A stretch of 64,000 bases of DNA from positions 310,001 through 374,000 of the forward strand of contig NZ_SDDZ01000001.1 in the NCBI RefSeq assembly GCF_004115975.1. The letters are read 5' to 3'. Positions 28,336 through 63,199 of this stretch are shown here, piece after piece. This DNA comes from Gelidibacter gilvus (lineage in GTDB: Bacteria > Bacteroidota > Bacteroidia > Flavobacteriales > Flavobacteriaceae). Numbering within the stretch: position 1 is the stretch's first letter; each line of letters opens with the position of its first letter. A program made the translations under genes and the position numbers. Under the pieces are notes generated by a model. That model saw only the letters and a program-made list of their open reading frames with translations, was not told where the DNA came from and did no database searches.

Positions 28336-29538
28336 TTGAATTTTTCGCTTTACATCGCTAAGCGATACCTCTTTACCAAAAGCAGCAATAATGCCATCAA
28401 TATCATGACCATTATTGCCGCTTCAGGCGTGGTCGTTGCCGCTGCAGCGTTGTTTATTGTTCTTTCAGGATTTGCAGGGTTAAAGGATTTTAGCCTTGAA
28501 TTTTCTTCTTTTGTAGATCCTGATCTTAAAATTCTTCCTGCTCAAGGAAAATCCTTTTTGCTTTCTGATAAAGACTCCACAGCATTGGCCAAGATGGACG
28601 GGATTGCGTACTACTCCAAAATCATTGAGGAACGCATCATTATGGAATTCGATAATAAGAATTTACTGGCATCCTTAAAAGGTGTGGATGAACATTATTT
28701 GAAGGTCACCAGCATTGATTCCATGATCATCCAAGGCCAATGGTTTGAAAAAGGAAGTGGTCAACTCGTTTCCGGCTGGGGCATTGCACACAAATTATCT
28801 TTTGGGGTTTTGGATTACGGAAAAGCCCTGAACATCTACGTTCCAAAACCGGGCGTAGGGCAAATCACTTCTATAAAAGGTGCGTTCAATTCCTTGAACA
28901 TGGTCAATATTGGTGTGTTTTATGTGAATGAAGATCTCAACGGCACCTATGTTTATACGGATATTGTAAACGCACGCTACTTGATGGATTACGCTAAAAA
29001 TCAAGTCACCAGCATTGAAATTAAGCTCCAACCAAATGCTGATGAAAAAACCGTCAGAAAAGCTATTTTGGAGAGTTTTGATACAGACGTCATCGTTAAA
29101 AACAGAGCACAGTTAAATGATTCCCTCTATAAGATGTTGAATACTGAAAATATGGTGGTTTATCTCATTTTTACTTTGGTGATCATCATCGCATTATTTA
29201 ATGTGATTGGTGCTTTGATCATGATGGTTCTAGACAAAAAAGGCTCTTTGAATACCCTTTATAATATTGGTGCCACAACGAAAGATATCCGTCGGGTGTT
29301 TTTCCTTCAGGGAAGCTTGATGACGATTTTAGGCGGACTTGCCGGCGTTTTGATAGGTTTTATCGTTGTGGTGCTACAACAGCAATTCGCATTGGTAATG
29401 ATTACGCCTTCGCTTCCTTACCCCGTTAAAATTCAAGTGGTGAATGTTCTGGTGGTTTTGGTAACCATTGCTGTTCTGGGACTGATTGCTTCTAAAATTG
29501 CCTCTGCACGAATCAATGAAAAGTTGATGCAGAATTAG
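28336..29538 (+). CDS. FtsX-type ABC transporter permease (LolC/LolE-like)
   Basis: A 400-aa inner-membrane protein. One transmembrane helix near residues 20-45 is followed by a periplasmic MacB-PCD-like domain (about 50-260) and three C-terminal helices. The opening FSLYIAKRYLFTKSSNNAINIMTIIA is typical of LolC/E-type lipoprotein-release permeases. It uses a TTG start immediately after the rbfA TAA (TAATTG); no ATG fits better. The cognate ATPase is not in the neighbourhood. Confidence 0.82.
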   Translation: MNFSLYIAKRYLFTKSSNNAINIMTIIAASGVVVAAAALFIVLSGFAGLKDFSLEFSSFVDPDLKILPAQGKSFLLSDKDSTALAKMDGIAYYSKIIEERIIMEFDNKNLLASLKGVDEHYLKVTSIDSMIIQGQWFEKGSGQLVSGWGIAHKLSFGVLDYGKALNIYVPKPGVGQITSIKGAFNSLNMVNIGVFYVNEDLNGTYVYTDIVNARYLMDYAKNQVTSIEIKLQPNADEKTVRKAILESFDTDVIVKNRAQLNDSLYKMLNTENMVVYLIFTLVIIIALFNVIGALIMMVLDKKGSLNTLYNIGATTKDIRRVFFLQGSLMTILGGLAGVLIGFIVVVLQQQFALVMITPSLPYPVKIQVVNVLVVLVTIAVLGLIASKIASARINEKLMQN

Positions 29539-29586
29539 TGTTCAGTGTTCAGTGTTCAGTGTTCAGTGTTCAGTGTTCAGTGTTCA
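29538..29586. repeat. Seven tandem copies of GTGTTCA
   Basis: Seven perfect 7-bp units begin at the last base of the stop codon of the FtsX-type permease gene. A 7-bp unit is not a multiple of 3 and is prone to slippage. The remaining spacer to dusB has a short CCCGATA-TCT-TATCGG-type palindrome near 29718 and no gene. Confidence 0.9.
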
Positions 29587-32396: not shown

Positions 32397-33500
32397 ATGA
32401 AACGTATTTTTTTTATCCTATTACTTTCAATCGTTATAACATCTTGTAAAGACGACAAGACATCCAATTCTGAAGTTGTTGAAAACATCGAAATATCAGT
32501 TACGGACTCGCTGATTTTTCCTGATGAAAAGCATTTCAAATCCTTAAAACAAATCACTTTTGGTGGAGATAACGCTGAAGCCTATTGGAGTTTTGACGAT
32601 AAGCAATTGGTGTTCCAATCCAATAATACCAATTGGAACGTCAATTGCGACCAGATGTTTTTAATGAATGCCGACGATACTTTTAAGGATAAAACGCCTG
32701 CTATGCTCAGTACAGGAAAAGGCAGAACCACGTGTGCTTATTTCTTACCTGACAACCAACATATTGTTTACGCCTCTACTCATTTAGGCGATGACAATTG
32801 CCCTGAAACCCCATTGAAAAAAGACGGGAAATACATTTGGCCAATCTATGATTCTTATGACATTTTTGTAGCCGATTTAGAAGGTAACATTACGGCACAA
32901 TTGACCGATGAGCGCGGTTATGATGCCGAAGCCACAGTTTCACCAAAAGGTGATAAAATTGTATTTACCTCTACCAGAAACGGCGATATCGATTTATATA
33001 CCATGAATATTGATGGTTCCGATGTCAAGCAAATTACTTTCGAATTAGGATATGATGGCGGCGCCTTCTTCTCTCCTGATGGCACAAAACTTATTTTTCG
33101 TTCTTCACGTCCAAAAACTGATGAAGAAATTGCAGAATATAAAAGCCTGCTAAAAGAAGGCTTGGTACAACCCACCGAGATGGAACTGTATATTTGTAAT
33201 GCGGATGGCAGTGATTTGAGACAATTGACCAACCTTGGAAATGCGAACTGGAGTCCGTTTTTTCTACCTGACGGCAAACGTATCATCTTCTCTTCCAATT
33301 TTGAAGCAGAACGTGGATTTCCATTTAATCTCTATATCATCGGAATTGATGGAAAAGGGCTGGAGCGTGTGACCCACAGTGATACATTTGATGCCTTCCC
33401 AGTGTTTTCCAATGATGGTAAAAAACTTATATTCTCTTCCAATAGAAACAACGGCGGTGGGCATGATACCAATTTGTTTGTTGCAGAATGGCAAGACTGA
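32397..33500 (+). CDS. TolB-like beta-propeller lipoprotein (PD40 repeats)
   Basis: The start at 32397 gives a lipoprotein signal with Cys17 (SIVITSC); the frame is open to 32274, but that N-terminus has no such signal. The body has WD40-like/PD40 blades with repeated phrases such as SPKGDKIVFTSTRNGDIDLY, SPDGTKLIFRSSRP, LPDGKRIIFSSNF and SNDGKKLIFSSNRN. It is about 367 aa, with no OmpA domain. It probably binds other envelope proteins. Its last ten codons form the beginning of a tandem repeat array (33471 onward). Confidence 0.8.
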   Translation: MKRIFFILLLSIVITSCKDDKTSNSEVVENIEISVTDSLIFPDEKHFKSLKQITFGGDNAEAYWSFDDKQLVFQSNNTNWNVNCDQMFLMNADDTFKDKTPAMLSTGKGRTTCAYFLPDNQHIVYASTHLGDDNCPETPLKKDGKYIWPIYDSYDIFVADLEGNITAQLTDERGYDAEATVSPKGDKIVFTSTRNGDIDLYTMNIDGSDVKQITFELGYDGGAFFSPDGTKLIFRSSRPKTDEEIAEYKSLLKEGLVQPTEMELYICNADGSDLRQLTNLGNANWSPFFLPDGKRIIFSSNFEAERGFPFNLYIIGIDGKGLERVTHSDTFDAFPVFSNDGKKLIFSSNRNNGGGHDTNLFVAEWQD

Positions 33501-33714
33501 AAGGATTGACATTCTGAAACAGCGTAATGCGAGACATCAATTTGTTTGTTGCAGAATGGCAAGACTGAAAGGATTGACATTCTGAAACAGCATAAAGCGA
33601 GACATCAATTTGTTTGTTGCAGAATGGCAAGACTGAAAGGATCGCCATTCTGAAACAGCGTAATGCGAGACATCAATTTGTTTGTTGCAGAATGGCAAGA
33701 ATGAAAGGATTAAT
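33471..33714. repeat. 68-bp tandem repeat made from the 3' end of the TolB-like gene
   Basis: Three complete 68-bp units (33471, 33539, 33607) and a 40-bp partial fourth (33675) differ at only a few bases. Unit 1 begins inside the coding sequence (codons for NLFVAEWQD and the stop). The final unit runs into the stop codon of the convergent receptor gene. Neighbouring units can pair through GCCATTCTG and CAGAATGGC, so each junction can form a hairpin. With 68 bp not divisible by 3, copies are out of frame with the gene. Confidence 0.92.
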
Positions 33715-36136
33715 TCTGCTTTTTCTCCAACCGCTCCGTTTCCTCTTCGGTTACCTGACGTTGGTTGGTTTCTAAATTGGTGTTTCCAAATTTGTACCGA
33801 AAGCCTAATTTAATGGTCCGTGTATCCTGATCAAAATACGTCGAGTTGTTTTGGTTCAGGTAACGCGAACTGACATTAAAATTCTGAGTGTTGAAAAGAT
33901 CTGAGACCACTAATGAAATGGTGCCTTTGTTCTTTAAAATCTTTTTAGATATTGATAAATTAGACATCAATATCTCATTAACCTCTCTAAAACCACTGAT
34001 GCTCTTGCTCAGATAAACCAAAGTAAAATTAGCAGTTAAACTGCGGTCTTTTAGAAACGTCATATCGTTGCTCAGGACAGTGTAATTTGACCATAGATCT
34101 TTTTTAAATTCAGAACCATCAATTTGACCTTGATCTTCCGCGTTAAAGAACGAGGTCGCAAAATAAACCGACCAGGTATCAATAACATTGAAATAGGTAA
34201 TGAAATCTATACCATACTCGACTGTTTTATCTAAGTTTAAAGGTGTGTAGGTTAAAATATTGTTGACATTATCCTGAAGCGGCAACTCGAAAATATTATT
34301 GCTATAGGCTTTATAATACGCCTCAACGGTATAAACTCCTTGACCTAGAGACGTTCCCAATACCACATTATCTACGATAACGGGCTTCAGATTTGGGTTT
34401 CCAGCAACTATGGTCACATCATTTAAATAAAATTGAAAAGGATTCAAACTTTGATAATCAGGTCTTCCAATACTTCTTTTATAATTAGTATAAAGCGAAA
34501 AATTATCTGAAAACGTATAATTTAAACTTGCCGTAGGAAACCATTCCAAATAATCTTGTGTGTTGGTGACATTATCAAAAACAGAAAGACCTTCAACAAG
34601 TGTTTTTTCAGCACGCAATCCCGTTTGCAGACTTAGTTTTTCCCAATCTTTTGAAAAATTCACATAACCCGCATAAATAGTTTCATCATAATCGAAGGCG
34701 TTTGTATTATTAGGATCAATGGTTTCCGTGCCATTTACAATATCAAACTGCGTAATATTACTTGCACTCTGGATATTGGAACCTTTAACACCTATCTCTA
34801 AATTTGATGCATCATCTATGGGTAAGTTGTAATCCACTTTTGCGGTGTAGATTTCCGTATCCTGAAGGTTATCGGTTCTAAAAGCAGTTGTGGCTAAAAA
34901 GCTATCATCACTATCAAAATAATTGCTCTTTACATTTTGATTTCGATTGTAATTATAGGTCGTGAAATGTGCGTTTGCCGAGAGCTTCTCCCCTGCTTTT
35001 TCAAATTTATGTACATAATCGAGATCAAAACCTAAATTGTACTTATCATCATTTGAAAGATTATTAGCGTCAAAATAATAGTCCAAATTCTGGTTCGCAT
35101 CAAAAACATTCGTGTTGTTATTGATTTTATATTCAAAATAAGGCAAGACCAAGACGTTTGAGGATAAGCTCAACGTATTTTTTTCGTTGATGTTGTAATC
35201 GAAATTGAAGTTGAAATTATGCGTTCTTGACCAGGTATTTCGGTTGGTTTCGGACTTAAATGTTTGGTCGATATTATTGGAGCCATCCAAGTAATTGATC
35301 ACATCCTCTTGACCTCTATTGATTTTATCGTGCGAATAAGTATAGTTGGCAAAAAAGTCAATCTTATCATTCTTAAAAAAGTGACTCATCCCTGCATCAT
35401 AACGAGGAAAAACGCCTTGGGTGAAATTGCCAAAAACATTACCTCGATATCCTGTAACCAAATTTTTACTCATCACAATATTGATCACAGCGCCACTTTC
35501 AGCATCATATTTTGCGGATGGATTGGTGATGACTTCAACTGATTTTATAGAATTTGCGGAGGAACTCTCCAGTAATTGAACCAACTCTTCACTACTCAAA
35601 TGCACCTTTTTATCGTTTATATAAACCGTGGGGGTAGAATTTTTTACTTGAATGTTATTGTCCATCACTAAAACTCCAGGGGTGCTCTTCAGTAGATCAA
35701 ATATATTGCCCTCAATTAATGCGGTATTTTCAACATTAAAAACCAAACGATCGGCTTCTTTTCTGAGCGTAGGTGTTTTAACGATAATACTTACTTCATC
35801 CAATTCTTCTGAAGATTCATATAAAACAATAATCCCGATGTCTATCACTCCATCAACTAAAACAGATTTGTAAACATCCGTAAAACCTAAATAACTTAAC
35901 TTCAGTAAGTAATCGTCTGGAGCTAATTTCTCGAGAAGAAAAAAACCTTTATCATTGGTTGAAACTCCTTTAACAACAGAAGAGTCTGCCGCTTTCATTA
36001 AAATGACATTGGCAAATGCAATAGGGTGTCCATCTATGTCATCTGCAAATCCAGAAATAGCATAGTTTTGAGCAAAACTCATGGAGGTTACAAGAATAAT
36101 GGTCAAAAATAAGAAGGTCTTGAAAGGGCGTTTCAA
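33710..36136 (-). CDS. TonB-dependent receptor-like outer-membrane protein
   Basis: 808 aa. A signal peptide (to about residue 22, MSFAQ) precedes a carboxypeptidase-regulatory-like domain (about 26-110) and a plug domain (STPGVLVMDNNIQVKNS, GAVINIVMSKNL). The C-terminal barrel is of the OMP_b-brl_3 type with many aromatic strands (YKRSIGRPDYQSLNPF). No SusD partner is nearby, so it is unlikely to be a polysaccharide-utilisation receptor; the substrate is unknown. It lies convergent to the TolB-like gene. Confidence 0.85.
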   Translation of the reverse strand: MKRPFKTFLFLTIILVTSMSFAQNYAISGFADDIDGHPIAFANVILMKAADSSVVKGVSTNDKGFFLLEKLAPDDYLLKLSYLGFTDVYKSVLVDGVIDIGIIVLYESSEELDEVSIIVKTPTLRKEADRLVFNVENTALIEGNIFDLLKSTPGVLVMDNNIQVKNSTPTVYINDKKVHLSSEELVQLLESSSANSIKSVEVITNPSAKYDAESGAVINIVMSKNLVTGYRGNVFGNFTQGVFPRYDAGMSHFFKNDKIDFFANYTYSHDKINRGQEDVINYLDGSNNIDQTFKSETNRNTWSRTHNFNFNFDYNINEKNTLSLSSNVLVLPYFEYKINNNTNVFDANQNLDYYFDANNLSNDDKYNLGFDLDYVHKFEKAGEKLSANAHFTTYNYNRNQNVKSNYFDSDDSFLATTAFRTDNLQDTEIYTAKVDYNLPIDDASNLEIGVKGSNIQSASNITQFDIVNGTETIDPNNTNAFDYDETIYAGYVNFSKDWEKLSLQTGLRAEKTLVEGLSVFDNVTNTQDYLEWFPTASLNYTFSDNFSLYTNYKRSIGRPDYQSLNPFQFYLNDVTIVAGNPNLKPVIVDNVVLGTSLGQGVYTVEAYYKAYSNNIFELPLQDNVNNILTYTPLNLDKTVEYGIDFITYFNVIDTWSVYFATSFFNAEDQGQIDGSEFKKDLWSNYTVLSNDMTFLKDRSLTANFTLVYLSKSISGFREVNEILMSNLSISKKILKNKGTISLVVSDLFNTQNFNVSSRYLNQNNSTYFDQDTRTIKLGFRYKFGNTNLETNQRQVTEEETERLEKKQN

Positions 36137-36284: not shown

Positions 36285-38081
36285 ATGAAGAACATTAGAA
36301 ATTTCTGTATTATAGCACATATTGATCATGGTAAAAGTACGCTTGCAGATCGATTATTGGATTTTACGGGTTCTGTAACCGAACGTGAAAAACAAAATCA
36401 GCTTCTTGATAGCATGGACTTGGAGCGTGAGCGTGGTATTACCATAAAATCTCACGCTATACAAATGGACTATACCTACAAAGGTGAAAAATATGTTCTC
36501 AATCTGATAGACACCCCCGGACACGTTGATTTCTCTTATGAAGTTTCGCGCTCCATTGCGGCATGTGAAGGCGCTTTATTGATTGTTGATGCGGCGCAAA
36601 GTATTCAAGCACAAACGATTTCAAATTTATATTTAGCCTTAGAAAACGATTTGGAAATTATTCCAATATTGAATAAAGTCGATTTACCAAGTGCCAATCC
36701 GGAAGAAGTTACTGACGATATTGTTGAGTTATTAGGTTGCAAACCAGAAGACATCATTCATGCCAGTGGAAAAACAGGTTTTGGAGTGGATAAGATTCTA
36801 GCCGCAGTAATTGAACGTATTCCTGCGCCGAAAGGTGATGTGGATGCGCCATTGCAAGCTTTGATTTTTGATTCGGTTTACAATACGTTTAGAGGGATCG
36901 AAACCTACTTTAGAGTATTTAACGGCGAAATCAAAAAAGGACAAAAAATTAAATTTGTTGCTACAGATAAAGAATATTATGCGGATGAAGTGGGTACTTT
37001 AAAACTCACTCAAGTTCCCAAACAAAGCGTTAAAGCTGGTGATGTTGGCTATTTGATTACAGGAATCAAAACCGCTAAAGAAGTAAAAGTAGGCGATACC
37101 ATTACTGATTTTGCACGACCAACTACTAATATTGTGGAAGGATTTGAAGACGTAAAACCCATGGTATTTGCTGGGATTTATCCAGTGGATAACGATGATT
37201 TTGAAGAGCTACGTAACTCCATGGAAAAGCTACAGCTTAACGATGCTTCCTTGGTATTTATTCCAGAAAGTTCAGCTGCTTTAGGTTTTGGATTCCGTTG
37301 TGGTTTCTTGGGAATGCTCCACATGGAAATTATCCAAGAGCGTTTGGAACGCGAATTTGACATGACTGTGATTACCACCGTGCCTAACGTATCTTACAAC
37401 GCCTACACCAATAAAAATCCGGATGTTCCATTTATCGTGAACAACCCATCAGACTTACCAGATCCATCAACCATCAACAGAGTAGAAGAGCCATATATTA
37501 AAGCTACCATTATTACAAAATCTGATTTTGTAGGTAACGTGATGTCTCTTTGTATTGAAAAAAGAGGGAATATAATCAACCAAACCTATTTGACCCCAGA
37601 GCGGGTAGAACTCACTTTTGAAATGCCATTGGCTGAAATTGTCTTTGATTTCTACGACCGATTAAAAACAGTCTCAAAAGGTTATGCTTCTTTTGATTAC
37701 CATCCAATGGGAATGAAAACTTCCAAATTGGTACGTTTGGATATTTTACTGAACTCTCAACCTGTGGATGCACTTTCTGCCTTGATCCACGCTGATAACG
37801 CTCAGGATATTGGTAAGAAAATGTGTGAAAAGTTGAGAGAATTGATTCCACGTCAACAATTTGATATTCCTATTCAAGCTGCCGTTGGTGCTAAAATTAT
37901 TTCTAGAGAAACTATTAAGGCACTTCGTAAAGATGTTACCGCAAAATGTTATGGTGGTGATATTTCACGTAAACGTAAACTTCTTGAAAAGCAGAAAAAA
38001 GGAAAGAAACGTATGCGTTTAGTTGGGAACGTTGAAATTCCACAACAGGCGTTTATGGCGGTTTTAAAGCTAAACGATTAA
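36285..38081 (+). CDS. lepA: Elongation factor 4 (LepA)
   Basis: A ribosome-dependent GTPase of translation. G1 is [11 protein letters not shown]3 is DTPGHVDF and G4 is NKVDLP. The LepA-specific C-terminal domain has [22 protein letters not shown] and [21 protein letters not shown]. It has 598 aa, the normal length. The last 22 codons form the head of a tandem array that copies the gene's 3' end three more times downstream. Confidence 0.95.
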
Positions 38082-38850
38082 CCCAATTCCTGCGCAGGCA
38101 GGAATCTCATCTTAAGAAAGAACAATTGACTTTTATTGTTTCAGCTAACTTCATGTTTTAATTAAAGCTCAAGATTAACTTCGCTGAACCTAAAGCTTTT
38201 TTGCTTTCGCAGGAATACATGAGTTTAGTTGGGAACGTTGAAATTCCACAACAAGCGTTTATGGCGGTTTTAAAGCTAAACGATTAACCCAATTCCTGCG
38301 CAAGCAGGAATCTCATCTTAAGAAAGAACAATTGACTTTTATTGTTTCAGCTAACTTCATGTTTTAATTAAAGCTCAAGATCAACTTCGTTGAACCTAAA
38401 GTTTTCCTGCTTTCGCAGGAATACATGAGTTTAGTTGGGAACGTTGAAATTCCACAACAGGCGTTTATGGCGGTTTTGAAGCTAAACGATTAACCCAATT
38501 CCTGCGCAGGCAGGAATCTCATCTTAAAAAGGAACAATTTATTTTTATTGTCTCAGCTAACTTCTCTTTTTAATTAAAAAACTAAGATTAACTTCGTTGA
38601 ACCTAAAGCTTTCCCGCTTTCGCAGGAATTCATGAGTTTAGTTGAGAACGTTAAAATTGCAGAACAGGCGTTTATGGCGGTTTTAAAGCGAAACGATTAG
38701 ATTAGTTCCTGCGAAGGCAGGAACCTCATGATAAATAGACCATTCTAGTTTTTTAACGCTTTTACCTAGTTCGTTTTTGAGCTAAAAAGTATAAGATCAA
38801 CTCCGTTGAACCGAAAGATTCCTGCGACCGCAGGAATCAGATCAGCATTC
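38017..38850. repeat. About 206-bp tandem repeat built from the lepA 3' end
   Basis: Units start at 38017 (inside lepA), 38223, 38429 and 38636 (periods 206, 206, 207). Each holds the final codons of lepA, the stop, a REP-like palindrome (ATTCCTGC-GCAG-GCAGGAAT in unit 1, 38086-38105), a spacer of about 100 bases and TTTCGCAGGAAT. In units 2-4 an ATG plus an AGT codon precede the copied tail. This makes 22-codon frames at 38219-38287, 38425-38493 and 38632-38700 that end like LepA. Unit 4 is the most diverged, with several amino-acid changes. The spacer from 38851 to 39009 holds no gene. Confidence 0.93.
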
Positions 38851-39009: not shown

Positions 39010-40413
39010 ATGAACATATATCATATCAGCGCGGAATGCTATCCTATTGCCAAGGTTGGAGGCTTGGGAGATGTGGTTGGCGCACTTCCAAAATATCAGA
39101 ATGAATTGGGTCAGACCAGTAGTGTCATCATGCCCTTTTATAATAATAAGTTTACCCAATCCCATTCGTTCAAAAAAGTTTTTAGTGGCCGCTTCAATTT
39201 GGGAAGACCCTTTGGTTTTGACATCCTCACGCTTGAAGACAACACCTTAGGTTATGACCTCTACCTCGTTCATATTCCAGAATTATTATATACAGAGTAT
39301 GTGTATTCTTCTAACGATACGAATCGCTTTTTAGGATTTCAGATTGCTACCTTAGATTGGTTGGTGCAATTAGAGAAAAAACCTGATATTGTACATTGCC
39401 ATGACCATCACACAGGGTTGATTCCATTTATGATGTCGCAATCTTACGCCTATCATAAATTAAAAACTACGCCAACTGTGGTTACCATACACAACGGACA
39501 ATACCAAGGTTGGTTCAGTCATAATAAAATTCACCTGATCCCTCCTTTTGATTTTTCAAAAGCTGGGTTATTAGATTGGAAGCATCTTATAAATCCGTTG
39601 GCTTCAGCCATAAAATGTGCATGGAAAGTGACTACAGTATCTCCAAATTATATGGAAGAACTCAAATATGCAGCCAATGGCCTGGAAGATTTGCTACGCT
39701 ATGAAACTGGGAAATGCGTTGGGATCTTAAATGGTATTGACGATAAGGTTTGGGATCCAGCTACCGACGATAATTTGATTCAAAATTATTCCGTAAAAAC
39801 TGCGGCTTCAGGTAAAAAGGCTAATAAAGAATGGCTTTGCAAAGAATTCAATCTCAATCCCACACTTCCGTTATTTGCATTTATTGGGCGTTTGGTAGGT
39901 GAAAAAGGAGCCGATTTATTACCTGAAATTTTTCATAATTCGCTAGTTCATAAAAACATGGCCGTGATCATGTTGGGATCTGGTGATTCTTCTGTAGAAC
40001 ATCAGTTAGACCAACTAAAATATCGCCATCCAGGCTATTACAACAACTATATTGGGTATAACGAACGTTTGGCACATATTGTTTACGCCGCTGCAGATTT
40101 TTTAGTAATGCCATCTCGTGTAGAGCCTTGTGGGCTTAACCAAATGTATGCCCTGCGCTATGGCACTGTACCTATTGTCAACAAAGTTGGAGGTTTGAAA
40201 GATACTGTTCAGGATTTTGACGATAACGGTTTTGGTATTTTACACGATGGTGCCACTGTGCACGAAGGTAGTTTTGCGATCCATCGGGCTATTGATTTTT
40301 ACCATGATACCGATAGATTCAAAAAAAATCGTAACTTAATCATGAAAATCGACCATTCTTGGGATTCTTCGGCCCAAGCTTATATTAATCTCTATAAATC
40401 ACTAATTCTATAA
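39010..40413 (+). CDS. glgA: Glycogen/starch synthase (GT5)
   Basis: Transfers glucose from ADP-glucose to an alpha-1,4-glucan. The nucleotide-sugar motif KVGGLGDVVGALPK (15-28), HCHDHHTG, FIGRLVGEKG and the C-terminal catalytic glutamate region SRVEPCGLNQMYALRYGT are clear. It has 467 aa. It ends 2 bases before glgC, so supply and use of ADP-glucose are encoded together. No branching enzyme lies in this window. Confidence 0.92.
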   Translation: MNIYHISAECYPIAKVGGLGDVVGALPKYQNELGQTSSVIMPFYNNKFTQSHSFKKVFSGRFNLGRPFGFDILTLEDNTLGYDLYLVHIPELLYTEYVYSSNDTNRFLGFQIATLDWLVQLEKKPDIVHCHDHHTGLIPFMMSQSYAYHKLKTTPTVVTIHNGQYQGWFSHNKIHLIPPFDFSKAGLLDWKHLINPLASAIKCAWKVTTVSPNYMEELKYAANGLEDLLRYETGKCVGILNGIDDKVWDPATDDNLIQNYSVKTAASGKKANKEWLCKEFNLNPTLPLFAFIGRLVGEKGADLLPEIFHNSLVHKNMAVIMLGSGDSSVEHQLDQLKYRHPGYYNNYIGYNERLAHIVYAAADFLVMPSRVEPCGLNQMYALRYGTVPIVNKVGGLKDTVQDFDDNGFGILHDGATVHEGSFAIHRAIDFYHDTDRFKKNRNLIMKIDHSWDSSAQAYINLYKSLIL

Positions 40414-55906: not shown

Positions 55907-57862
55907 ATGAAAAACCAACTACTTCTTTTTTTGTGCTTATTTGGGATGACGATAAGCCAGTCCCAGACTTTTAATGATGGGGTGTTAGAATACACCGTAA
56001 CCGATGTCACAAATGGCTATGTTTCTGTAAAAAAATATGAGACTGCTGGACCGACAGGGGATCTCTCTATACCTGAAACCGTAGTGGATAATGGTTTAAC
56101 CTACATAATAACGAGTATTCAAGATTCTGGATTTTTTTGGAGTCTTGGTTTAACTAGTGTTAGCATACCAAATACTGTTTCTAGTATCGGAAATCGAGCT
56201 TTTGAAAGTTGTAGGGTTCTAGAGAGTATTAATATACCAAATAGTGTTACAAGTATTGGGAATAAGGCTTTTGAAGGTTGTTGGAATTTGGAAAGTGCAA
56301 GTCTATCCGATAACATTATTAGTATAGGAAACGAAACTTTTAGTGGTTGTCGACGTTTATTAAGCATTGATATACCAAATGGAGTTACAAGTATTGGTAA
56401 TTCAGCTTTTCAGGGGTGTGGTATGCTGGAGAGTATTAATATTCCAGATAGTGTTGAAAGTATTGGTAATTCAGCTTTTTATGGTTGTTTTACGCTGAAG
56501 AGTATTAATATTCCAAATAGTGTTAAAAGTATAGGTAATTCAGCTTTTTACCGTTGTAGATCTTTAACAAACGTTGTTCTACCAGTTGACATTATCAGTA
56601 TAGAAAATCAAACTTTTAGTGAGTGTAGTAGTTTATTGACCGTTAATATACCAAATGGAGTTAAGAGCATTGGATCATCTGCATTTTCCGAATGTGAAAA
56701 CTTAACGAGTATTGATATACCCGATGGAGTTACCAGTATTGGACAATCTGCTTTTTGGAATTGTAGTAGTTTATCAAGTATAATTCTACCGGAGGGTCTT
56801 ACGGATTTTGGAGATAGCGTTTTTCATGGTTGTAGTAATCTCACAAGTGTATCTCTCCCAAATGGTATTACCAGAATTCCAAATGGAACTTTTCGCGGTT
56901 GTAGCAGTTTACCAAGTATCTCTTTACCAATTGGTATAATCATTATTGGAGAACAAGCTTTTTCCGGTTGCAGTAGTTTAACAAGTATAATTCTACCAGA
57001 TGGTCTTAGAAGTATTGGACGAAATGCTTTTTACGGGTGTACTGGTCTAACAAATGTAACTTTACCAGATAATCTTACTAGTATGGGAGCGTCTGCTTTT
57101 TCTCGTTGTAGTAGATTAACGAGTATTGCCATTCCTGAAAGAATTACGATTATTAGTGAAGGATCTTTTAGTTATTGTACTAGTCTCACGAACGTATCTC
57201 TTCCTAATGGTATTACTAGTATTGGACCGCGTGCTTTTGATGGTTGTAGTAGTCTCATAAGCGTACCTCTTCCAAATAGTCTTAAATTTATTTACGATCA
57301 AGCTTTTAAAGATTGTAATAGTTTAACAAGTATAATTCTACCAGATGATCTTAGAACTATTGGACTTGGTGCTTTTAGTGATTGCAGTAGTTTAACAAAC
57401 ATTAATATTCCAGGATCTGTTGCCATTATGGGTACTTTTGTTTTTGCCCGTAGTACTGCGCTGTCCAGTGTCACAGTAAATTGGAATATACCATTAGCTA
57501 TAAACGCTAATGTGTTTGAAGGGATAACTATAGAAAACATCCCCTTAACCGTCCCTGCAGGAACTGAAGCCGCTTACCAAGCCGCAGCTGTCTGGCAGGA
57601 TTTCGATTGGTCTGCTTTAAGCCTCTTAGATTTTGCCATTGCAACAGTCCGGTTATACCCCAACCCAACCTCATCCTTTTTAAAAATAGATTTGAATGGA
57701 ACTTCAGAACTTAAGAAAGCGACCATTTATAATAACTTAGGTCAATTGATTTCAGAGGAAAAGGAAACTCAAATCAGTGTTTCCAACTATTCAAAAGGGC
57801 TTTATTTTGCAGAAATAGAGACTAATCAAGGCAAGGTTACCAAGAAATTTATGGTGGAGTAA
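55907..57862 (+). CDS. BspA-type leucine-rich-repeat surface protein, paralogue
   Basis: 651 aa with a signal peptide (ending MTISQSQ). It has one cap (LEYTVTDVTNGYVSVKK), about 20 LRRs of ~23 residues (for example LTSVSIPNTVSSIGNRAFESC) and the ENIPLTVPAGTEAAYQAAAVWQ end cap. The T9SS type A sorting domain is nearly identical at DNA level to that of the preceding gene. Similar upstream sequence (TAACTTACTC-TTATTAACTA type) shows that the whole gene unit was duplicated. It is probably a surface adhesin; the ligand is unknown. Confidence 0.9.
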   Translation: MKNQLLLFLCLFGMTISQSQTFNDGVLEYTVTDVTNGYVSVKKYETAGPTGDLSIPETVVDNGLTYIITSIQDSGFFWSLGLTSVSIPNTVSSIGNRAFESCRVLESINIPNSVTSIGNKAFEGCWNLESASLSDNIISIGNETFSGCRRLLSIDIPNGVTSIGNSAFQGCGMLESINIPDSVESIGNSAFYGCFTLKSINIPNSVKSIGNSAFYRCRSLTNVVLPVDIISIENQTFSECSSLLTVNIPNGVKSIGSSAFSECENLTSIDIPDGVTSIGQSAFWNCSSLSSIILPEGLTDFGDSVFHGCSNLTSVSLPNGITRIPNGTFRGCSSLPSISLPIGIIIIGEQAFSGCSSLTSIILPDGLRSIGRNAFYGCTGLTNVTLPDNLTSMGASAFSRCSRLTSIAIPERITIISEGSFSYCTSLTNVSLPNGITSIGPRAFDGCSSLISVPLPNSLKFIYDQAFKDCNSLTSIILPDDLRTIGLGAFSDCSSLTNINIPGSVAIMGTFVFARSTALSSVTVNWNIPLAINANVFEGITIENIPLTVPAGTEAAYQAAAVWQDFDWSALSLLDFAIATVRLYPNPTSSFLKIDLNGTSELKKATIYNNLGQLISEEKETQISVSNYSKGLYFAEIETNQGKVTKKFMVE

Positions 57863-62263: not shown

Positions 62264-63199
62264 AGAACACAGACCTGCCCGTCCGTACAGGCGGGTGGCT
62301 CGGATTTCTTATGACAATCATTTATTTTGAACATTTATCAGTGGCCATCTGCTCAATCTGCGTCCTCAGCATTCCATCATTAGAACACAGACCTGCCCGT
62401 CCGTACAGGCGGGTGACGCGGATTTCTTATGATAGTCACTGATTTTTAAGCGTTTTTTAAAAATCTGAAAAGTTCGTTTGACAGAACTTAAACCTCTCGG
62501 ATATTCAAAACCTGAGAGGTTTTTTAGTCTAAATCAGTGGCCATCTGCTCAATCTGCGTGCTCAGCGTTCCATCATTAGAACACAGACCTGCCCGTCCGT
62601 ACAGGCGGGTGACTCGGATTTCTAATGATAATCATTGATTTTGAACATTTATCAGTGGCCATCTGCTCAATCTGCGTTCTCAGCGTTCCATCATTAGAAC
62701 ACAGATGACGCGGATTTCTTATGATAGTCACTGATTTTAAAGCTTTTTTTAAAAAGCTGAAAAGTTCGTTTGACAGAACTTAAACCTCTCAGATATTCAA
62801 AACCTGAGAGGTTTTTTTAATCTAAATCATTGGCCATCTGCTCAATCTGCGTCCTCAGCGTTCCATAATCTTAACAGATGACTTGGATTTCTTATGTTAA
62901 TCATTGATTTTGAACATTTATCAGTGGCCATCTGCTCAATCTGCGTCCTCAGCGTTCCATCATTAGAACACAGACCTGCCCGTCCGTACAGGCGGGTGAC
63001 GCGGATTTCTTATGATAATCATTGATTTTGAACATTTAATAGTGGCCATCTGCTCAATCTGCGTCCTCAACATTCCATCATTAGAACACAGACCTGCCCG
63101 TCCGTACAGGCGGGTGACGCGGATTTCTTATGATAATCATTGATTTTGAACATTTATCAGTGGCCATCTGCTCAATCTGCGTCATCAGTGTTCCATCCT
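62264..63199. repeat. Seven-unit composite tandem array
   Basis: Units begin at 62264, 62382, 62578, 62696, 62870, 62965 and 63083, with lengths 118, 196, 118, 174, 95, 118 and about 117. The common unit starts AGAACACAGA and ends TTCCATCATT. A 22-bp palindrome (arms CCTGCC and GGCGGG) occupies the same site in units 1, 2, 3, 6 and 7 and is absent from units 4 and 5. Units 2 and 4 also carry a ~78-bp module with a hairpin (AACCTCT / AGAGGTT followed by T). No unique spacers exist, so it is not a CRISPR. No protein is predicted. Confidence 0.95.

Follow-up and report, generated by a model that had tools for sequence, protein, structure and literature searches.

The lepA gene of Gelidibacter gilvus is followed by three further copies of its own coding end, and we consider it probable that the array is a tandem REPIN-like cluster that includes the flanking lepA end, has grown by unequal homologous recombination and is a neutral by-product. 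It occupies positions 38013-38837 of the window (the whole stretch of 64,000 nucleotides that was analyzed) and consists of four tandem units of 206 to 207 bp, each composed of a tail, T (69 nt, the final 22 codons of lepA plus the stop), and an element, E (∼137 bp), that is bounded by inverted REP-like palindromes (Table 1).

The array behind lepA

The units start at 38013, 38219, 38425 and 38632, with a spacing of 206, 206 and 207 (TRF score 1187, 92% matches). An earlier note on this DNA had recognized the four tandem units but put their starts at 38017, 38223, 38429 and 38636; the copied segment begins at 38013 and is 69 nt long. The three 22-codon frames that it described at 38219-38287, 38425-38493 and 38632-38700 are all intact (69 nt including the stop), and a palindrome does follow each stop. 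What it took for a spacer is present, but as an element bounded on either side by a palindrome: p, with the sequence ATTCCTGC-NNNN-GCAGGAAT, lies 4 nt past the stop and q two bases ahead of the next ATG. The note had also held that an ATG and an AGT codon newly precede the tail in every copy. The ATG is an internal Met of LepA (..KKR-MRLVGN..), and lepA reads ATG CGT where the copies read ATG AGT, a difference of one base (C>A); gained start codons were therefore rejected. Unit 4 has diverged as described, with six replacement changes, but is not without a stop, since TAG stands at 38698-38700 and is followed by E4 at 38701-38837.

TABLE 1 The lepA locus of the window and further palindrome-associated tandem arrays of the same genome (G000)
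Feature	Positions in window	Strand	Period (bp) and copies	Remarks
lepA	36285..38081	+		598 codons; 95-99% identity to relatives in 8 same-genus genomes
T1, working lepA end, opening unit 1	38013..38081	+		Last 69 nt of lepA
E1, element	38082..38218	+		p 38086-38105; q (left arm degenerate) ending 38216
T2, copied lepA tail	38219..38287	+		Frame intact, 22 codons + TAA
E2, element	38288..38424	+		p from 38292; q 38404-38422
T3, copied lepA tail	38425..38493	+		Frame intact, 22 codons + TAA
E3, element	38494..38631	+		p from 38498; q 38611-38629
T4, copied lepA tail, most diverged of the tails	38632..38700	+		Frame intact, 22 codons + TAG
E4, element, most diverged of the elements	38701..38837	+		Palindromes at 38705 and 38818-38836
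Array L039			207 x 4.4	Tail of an open frame of 517 codons, no Pfam match
Array L045			224 x 2.8	Tail of a PNP_UDP_1 gene
Array L040			180 x 3.0	5' end of an acyltransferase gene
Array L042			265 x 3.6	5' part of a GIY-YIG gene
Array L041			183 x 3.1	No gene end copied
Array L044			210 x 2.0	Behind the DNA polymerase III beta subunit gene; no gene end copied
Array L052			144 x 1.8	Palindrome beside the array, not within it

The array lies between lepA and the following gene, which begins at 39010 on the same strand and which we take to resemble glgA. The genome is a 4.63-Mb draft in 42 contigs, and the copy number of the array is that of one assembly. Assembly artefact was rejected as the sole cause because the units differ in sequence and because two other genomes, G187 and G457, share the architecture, each of them being assembled as a single contig. 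At each downstream tail, in the window (38209-38221) as at the corresponding junctions in six genomes, palindrome q supplies an AGGA four bases ahead of the ATG, which may be chance. By eye, the copied tail begins midway in a palindrome-like stretch of lepA, CGTATGCG or CGCATGCG (window 38010-38017 and relatives).

Exact palindromes number 78 in this genome and 0 in the reversed control, and in 71 of the 78 the loop, read in one orientation, is GNNR. Counts of the GNNR-loop form in the nine genomes of the genus are 71 in G000, 59 in G004, 58 in G008, 29 in G006, 14 in G003, 7 in G002, 3 in G007 and 0 in both G001 and G005. Many of the 65 palindrome flanks that we listed begin a few bases past an apparent stop codon, and TCT follows in most (both by eye); some copies carry G or C in place of A as the first base of the stem. 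The transposase domain PF01797, that of the RAYT proteins considered as a candidate mover of the palindrome, is present in seven of the nine genomes, with matches at E<1e-20 in G000, G002, G004, G006 and G008, but G003 has 14 palindromes without a match of this quality and G002 just 7 palindromes with two. At two of the four PF01797 loci of the window's own genome, no flanking palindrome occurred within the 2.4 kb read. The best named matches of lepA itself, with near records left out, are from Flavobacteriaceae, Formosa algae being the top one at 94%.

Among the nine species of the genus, the tail is copied only in that of the window. In G004, G006 and G008 the lepA tail is not copied and a palindrome follows the gene, its TTCC starting 8 to 10 nt past the stop; judged by eye, G003 has a degenerate palindrome there and G001, G002, G005 and G007 have no element. 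Two of these genomes, G004 and G008, also carry tandem arrays (TRF 184 x 3.0 and 129 x 2.8), which do not contain the lepA tail and whose repeats begin, by eye, inside the palindrome. The start of E4 carries the letters of these congeners (GTTCC..GGAACCTCATGAT), and over the first 60 nt E4 and E1 match G006 at 45/57 versus 39/57 positions, G008 at 41/56 versus 36/56, G004 at 38/55 versus 40/55 and G003 at 34/54 versus 33/54. That T4-E4 may be the native lepA end is only a suggestion, because E4 is just slightly nearer to the congeners than E1. Between lepA and the next gene, G004 (L161) and G002 (L166) have what by eye is an AAA-type ATPase-like frame, seemingly broken in G008 (L162).

Copied gene ends in other genera and at other genes

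We searched for lepA tails with a degenerate pattern for an 11-residue protein string, allowing at most 2 mismatches and reading copy counts by eye. The pattern matched in 361 of 397 genomes of the family and was repeated in six: three times in G000 and G312 and twice in G187, G237, G259 and G374. The earlier note had proposed a search for lepA-tail arrays in relatives, and they exist: 4 of 60 sampled genomes of genus g176 (G187, G437, G455 and G457) have two lepA tails 260 to 270 bp apart (counts by eye), and one of the two genomes of genus g88 (G312) has three, 265 apart. In all five the order is lepA body, T1, E (191 to 201 nt), T2. Including the window, all nine downstream tails in the six genomes open with one and the same LepA Met codon, two bases past GCAGGAAT, and keep start, frame and stop. 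Six genomes do not amount to six independent events, as E is nearly identical within the pair G187/G457 and within the pair G437/G455.

Tail repeats that lack an intervening palindrome were set aside as other events. These are G259 (L184, 552 bp), G374 (L181, 2984 bp), G237 (L180, 5615 bp) and, likewise palindrome-free, Flagellimonas beolgyonensis (L072, 1166 bp), the last from a survey of lepA-tail repeats in which 13 of 113 loci were left out as not fitting the strict tail motif. The G374 repeat resembles a tandem duplication of 3 kb that takes in both the lepA end and the next gene.

The palindrome arrays are not special to lepA, other gene ends being copied likewise in the same genome. Six further arrays, located via palindrome clusters and hence found through the palindrome, contain it, and four of the six copy a 3' or 5' gene end (Table 1). 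In L042 (1457-2419), the full GIY-YIG gene is preceded by three truncated 5' copies, each ending a few bases before the palindrome. As a control we took 459.9 kb (20 stretches of contig C24 plus the window), with genes represented by crude open frames. This sample held eight arrays with a period of at least 90, of which the two with the palindrome (the lepA array of the window and L040) both overlap a gene end and the six without it do not (0 of 6; five lie outside called frames and one inside a frame), although these are small numbers.

Recombination within the tails and alternative readings

In G312, the middle tail T2 equals T3 at positions 6, 9 and 12 and T1 at positions 21, 24, 27, 30, 36, 51, 60 and 63; position 48 has a letter of its own, and at position 5 T1 and T2 agree against T3. 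The middle tail is thereby shown to be a chimera of its neighbors that changes type once, the pattern to be expected from unequal crossing-over between T3 and T1. In the window, T2 and T3 equal T4 at position 4 and T1 at positions 14, 22, 28, 31, 59 and 69, with one own site each, which is consistent with a similar chimera whose left side rests on one site. The earlier note had offered recombination between palindromes as one origin of the array; a recombination by-product is what we favor, but the readable recombination sits inside the copied tails rather than between palindromes. The switch falls within positions 12 to 21 in G312 and 4 to 14 in the window, and T1 and T2 begin to differ after position 17 in G437, at about 54 in G455, and at about 62 in G187; in G457 the first difference falls in the second codon. 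An element with a site-specific recombinase should cross over at one constant position of the gene end that is repeated; no such constancy was found across G312, the window, G437, G455 and G187. Since the switch points differ between genomes, general recombination would fit better than a site-specific enzyme, and growth by recombination between tail copies is likely.

We propose a course of three steps. REP-type elements would first arrive just behind the lepA stop, a state without copied tail that G004, G006 and G008 display. A tail-element-tail arrangement would then form, its second tail opening at the LepA Met two bases past q, for which hairpin-provoked template switching and the capture of a T-E unit by recombination are the candidate modes that we infer. 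Finally, unequal homologous recombination between tail copies would raise their number (shown in G312, consistent in the window) and leave middle tails of distal type at the 5' end and of lepA-proximal type at the 3' end. T1, in frame with the gene body, would keep LepA whole while the displaced copies drift. According to a report on EF4 (PMC4339808), its last 44 residues form a functional subdomain, and because T encodes the last 22, the tail in frame with the gene body has to remain intact. This growth model does not account for the first tail-element-tail unit or for its start at that Met. A random breakpoint does not predict the start codon common to six genomes, although shared descent may account for several of them, and duplication of T plus E should leave E behind the last tail, yet beyond that tail G437, G455 and G457 have no palindrome element and G187 and G312 have p alone.

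A second reading, which we regard as doubtful, is that a lepA-specific, miniature noncoding T-E unit moves between species of the family with the lepA tail as its landing or homology arm. It would enter at one Met codon and provide a new in-frame lepA end, so that LepA remained intact, the native end being pushed downstream, and repeated entry would build the array. The start codon common to three genera would fit this, as would the native sequence after the last tail in G437, G455 and G457 and the uninterrupted lepA site of G426, whose downstream sequence matches that after T2 in G437 and G455. Full-length E was seen only at lepA, in five genomes, other matches being palindrome ends (in four of the five, among the 40 candidates scored). 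Within a set of 157 distinct lepA loci, in which repeats of one locus were counted once and one locus without tail was left out, full-length E is confined to the five that have tail copies; at the lepA locus of G481, where the tail is not copied, the p..q element is shorter. E is also more similar than its surroundings, with 182/191 positions alike between G187 and G457 despite 124/217 at four-fold sites of lepA (third-position agreement 0.50-0.90 up to the end of T1) and 136/191 versus 77/184 between G187 and G312. G437 and G455, nearer to each other in lepA, share less of E (176/193); upstream of about -1140 the lepA of G455 does not align with the rest, so that its body values are understated.

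Transfer between species would produce an E similarity greater than that of lepA, but constraint on E would equally keep it alike. T1 of the window does not appear foreign, because T1 and T4 share silent letters of their own lineage, and in G187 and G455 T1 and T2 agree save near the 3' end. The interior of the window E is not recognizably that of g176, the blastn match being confined to about 36 nt around p; the search of viral contigs gave no match to the junction and that of plasmids none to E. Were the mobile unit real, the final codons of a conserved gene would serve an element as its landing arm, with the displaced gene ends stacked behind it.

One could also suppose that E is kept as an RNA structure at the 3' end of lepA, a hairpin for processing or stability, and that the tail copies ride along, which we think quite unlikely. 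The TTCC of p lies 4 to 10 nt past the stop wherever it is present, and p pairs with q in the predicted folds of the window and G187 units. The G187 unit (-60.8 kcal/mol, z -6.2) folds better than all 200 shuffles (0/200 as good), but the window unit reaches only -33.5 kcal/mol (z -1.5), with 16/200 shuffles as good. In an alignment of six units, both partners have changed in 8 of the 55 pairs predicted, two of them in hairpin p, whereas the covariation term (+0.42) is slightly unfavorable. The + strand, on which lepA lies, has no terminator-like site (the sole one is on the - strand, at the expected rate), the array matched no known RNA family, only two tRNAs within the window reaching Rfam cut-offs, and four congeners (G001, G002, G005 and G007) do without an element behind lepA.

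The tails of the window have diverged less than its elements. Relative to unit 1, unit 2 differs at 2/69 positions of T and 6/137 of E, unit 3 at 2/69 and 17/137 (Fisher p 0.038) and unit 4 at 7/69 and 46/136 (p 0.00018). Measured against the full element rate the tails are unusual (one-sided p 0.006 and 5e-6), but not against half that rate (one-sided p 0.19 and 0.08), which is the fairer neutral expectation because T1, as the working lepA end, can hardly drift. The earlier note's proposal that the frames are expressed as peptides, in the form that the three LepA C-terminal peptides are translated and functional, for example on the ribosome, is highly unlikely: T1 and T4 differ by 6 replacement and 0 silent changes, and T1-T2 and T1-T3 by 1 replacement and 1 silent change each, where 42 of 198 possible single changes in the tail are silent, so that no selection at the peptide level is seen on the copied frames of the window, in these small numbers. 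In its favor, start, frame and stop are kept in all nine downstream copies, changes between T1 and downstream tails pooled over the five other genomes are mostly silent (6.5 replacement to 35.5 silent), AGGA precedes each ATG and the EF4 subdomain just cited covers the tail. However, the frames are inherited from lepA and congeners do without them, AGGA belongs to the palindrome arm, and the silent bias is expected anyway, as the downstream tail would have been, or would share letters with, the functional lepA end until displaced; T4, the most diverged copy in the window, runs opposite to that bias.

Relation to known repeat families

REPINs of Pseudomonas fluorescens SBW25, as Bertels and Rainey (2011, PMC3116915) describe them, are inverted REP doublets with a spacer and a predicted hairpin. 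SBW25 has 16 tandem REPIN clusters "including the flanking sequences", the largest with four REPINs and over 700 bp, and the same text left a second mechanism of cluster formation unknown. The window array resembles these clusters in its inverted palindrome pair with spacer (p/q pairs, a REPIN trait, were found in the window units and G187), in the genome-wide over-representation of the palindrome and in tandem repetition that includes the flank. It differs from the SBW25 clusters in the palindrome itself and in the flank, which here is the final coding stretch of a conserved gene and is copied from an identical codon in other genera; no palindrome-flanked transposase gene was found at the two of four PF01797 loci looked at.

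The palindrome is likewise comparable with family 1 of the CGTC-tagged REPs, which, according to Di Nocera et al. (2013, PMC3733652), have an 8-bp stem starting with A-T pairs and a loop of 4, are reported from Bacteroidetes and other groups, for the most part downstream of coding sequences, and accompany IS200-type genes that are not repeat-flanked. For GTAG families, that paper describes clusters in which pieces of the flanking DNA are repeated in tandem together with the REPs. The palindrome of the window shares the 8-bp stem, the A-T first pairs and the 4-nt loop, but differs from this CGTC family in that TCTC follows the stem in most flanks, and a terminal CGTC (or TGTC or CCTC) tag was not seen as constant in the 65 flanks inspected by eye. 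We call the element REPIN-like and assign it to neither family, because no CGTC tag was seen and the two PF01797 loci were not palindrome-flanked. BrickBuilt of Porphyromonas gingivalis, a minisatellite inside a MITE (PMC4596501), is alike in that its tandem repeat is associated with an intergenic inverted-repeat element of Bacteroidetes and differs in that its units of 23 nt lie within the element and do not include a gene end.

Among open papers, no title concerned gene ends copied with REPs, nor lepA as such a site. MIRUs of mycobacteria are tandem intergenic repeats with short frames beside gene ends, and are not known to copy the end of the neighboring gene. Tandem REPIN clusters in which the flanks are repeated as well have been published before; the novelty here is that this flank belongs to a conserved gene and that three genera copy its end from the same codon. 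The lepA loci of these genera are natural replicates in which ideas on the formation of REP clusters can be tested at one and the same place, and 22-codon frames behind lepA should be annotated as copies of its end rather than as new genes.

The window contains other tandem repeats. A 118-bp array of 2.7 copies (62885-63197) lacks the palindrome and lies outside called frames, and a 68-bp array of 3.7 copies (33470-33718) lies at the end of a large frame on the - strand (33710-36136). Degenerate 69-bp repeats at 56165-57126, whose period is a multiple of three, are perhaps a coding repeat, and the heptamer AGTGTTC forms a perfect run of 7.1 copies at 29537-29586.
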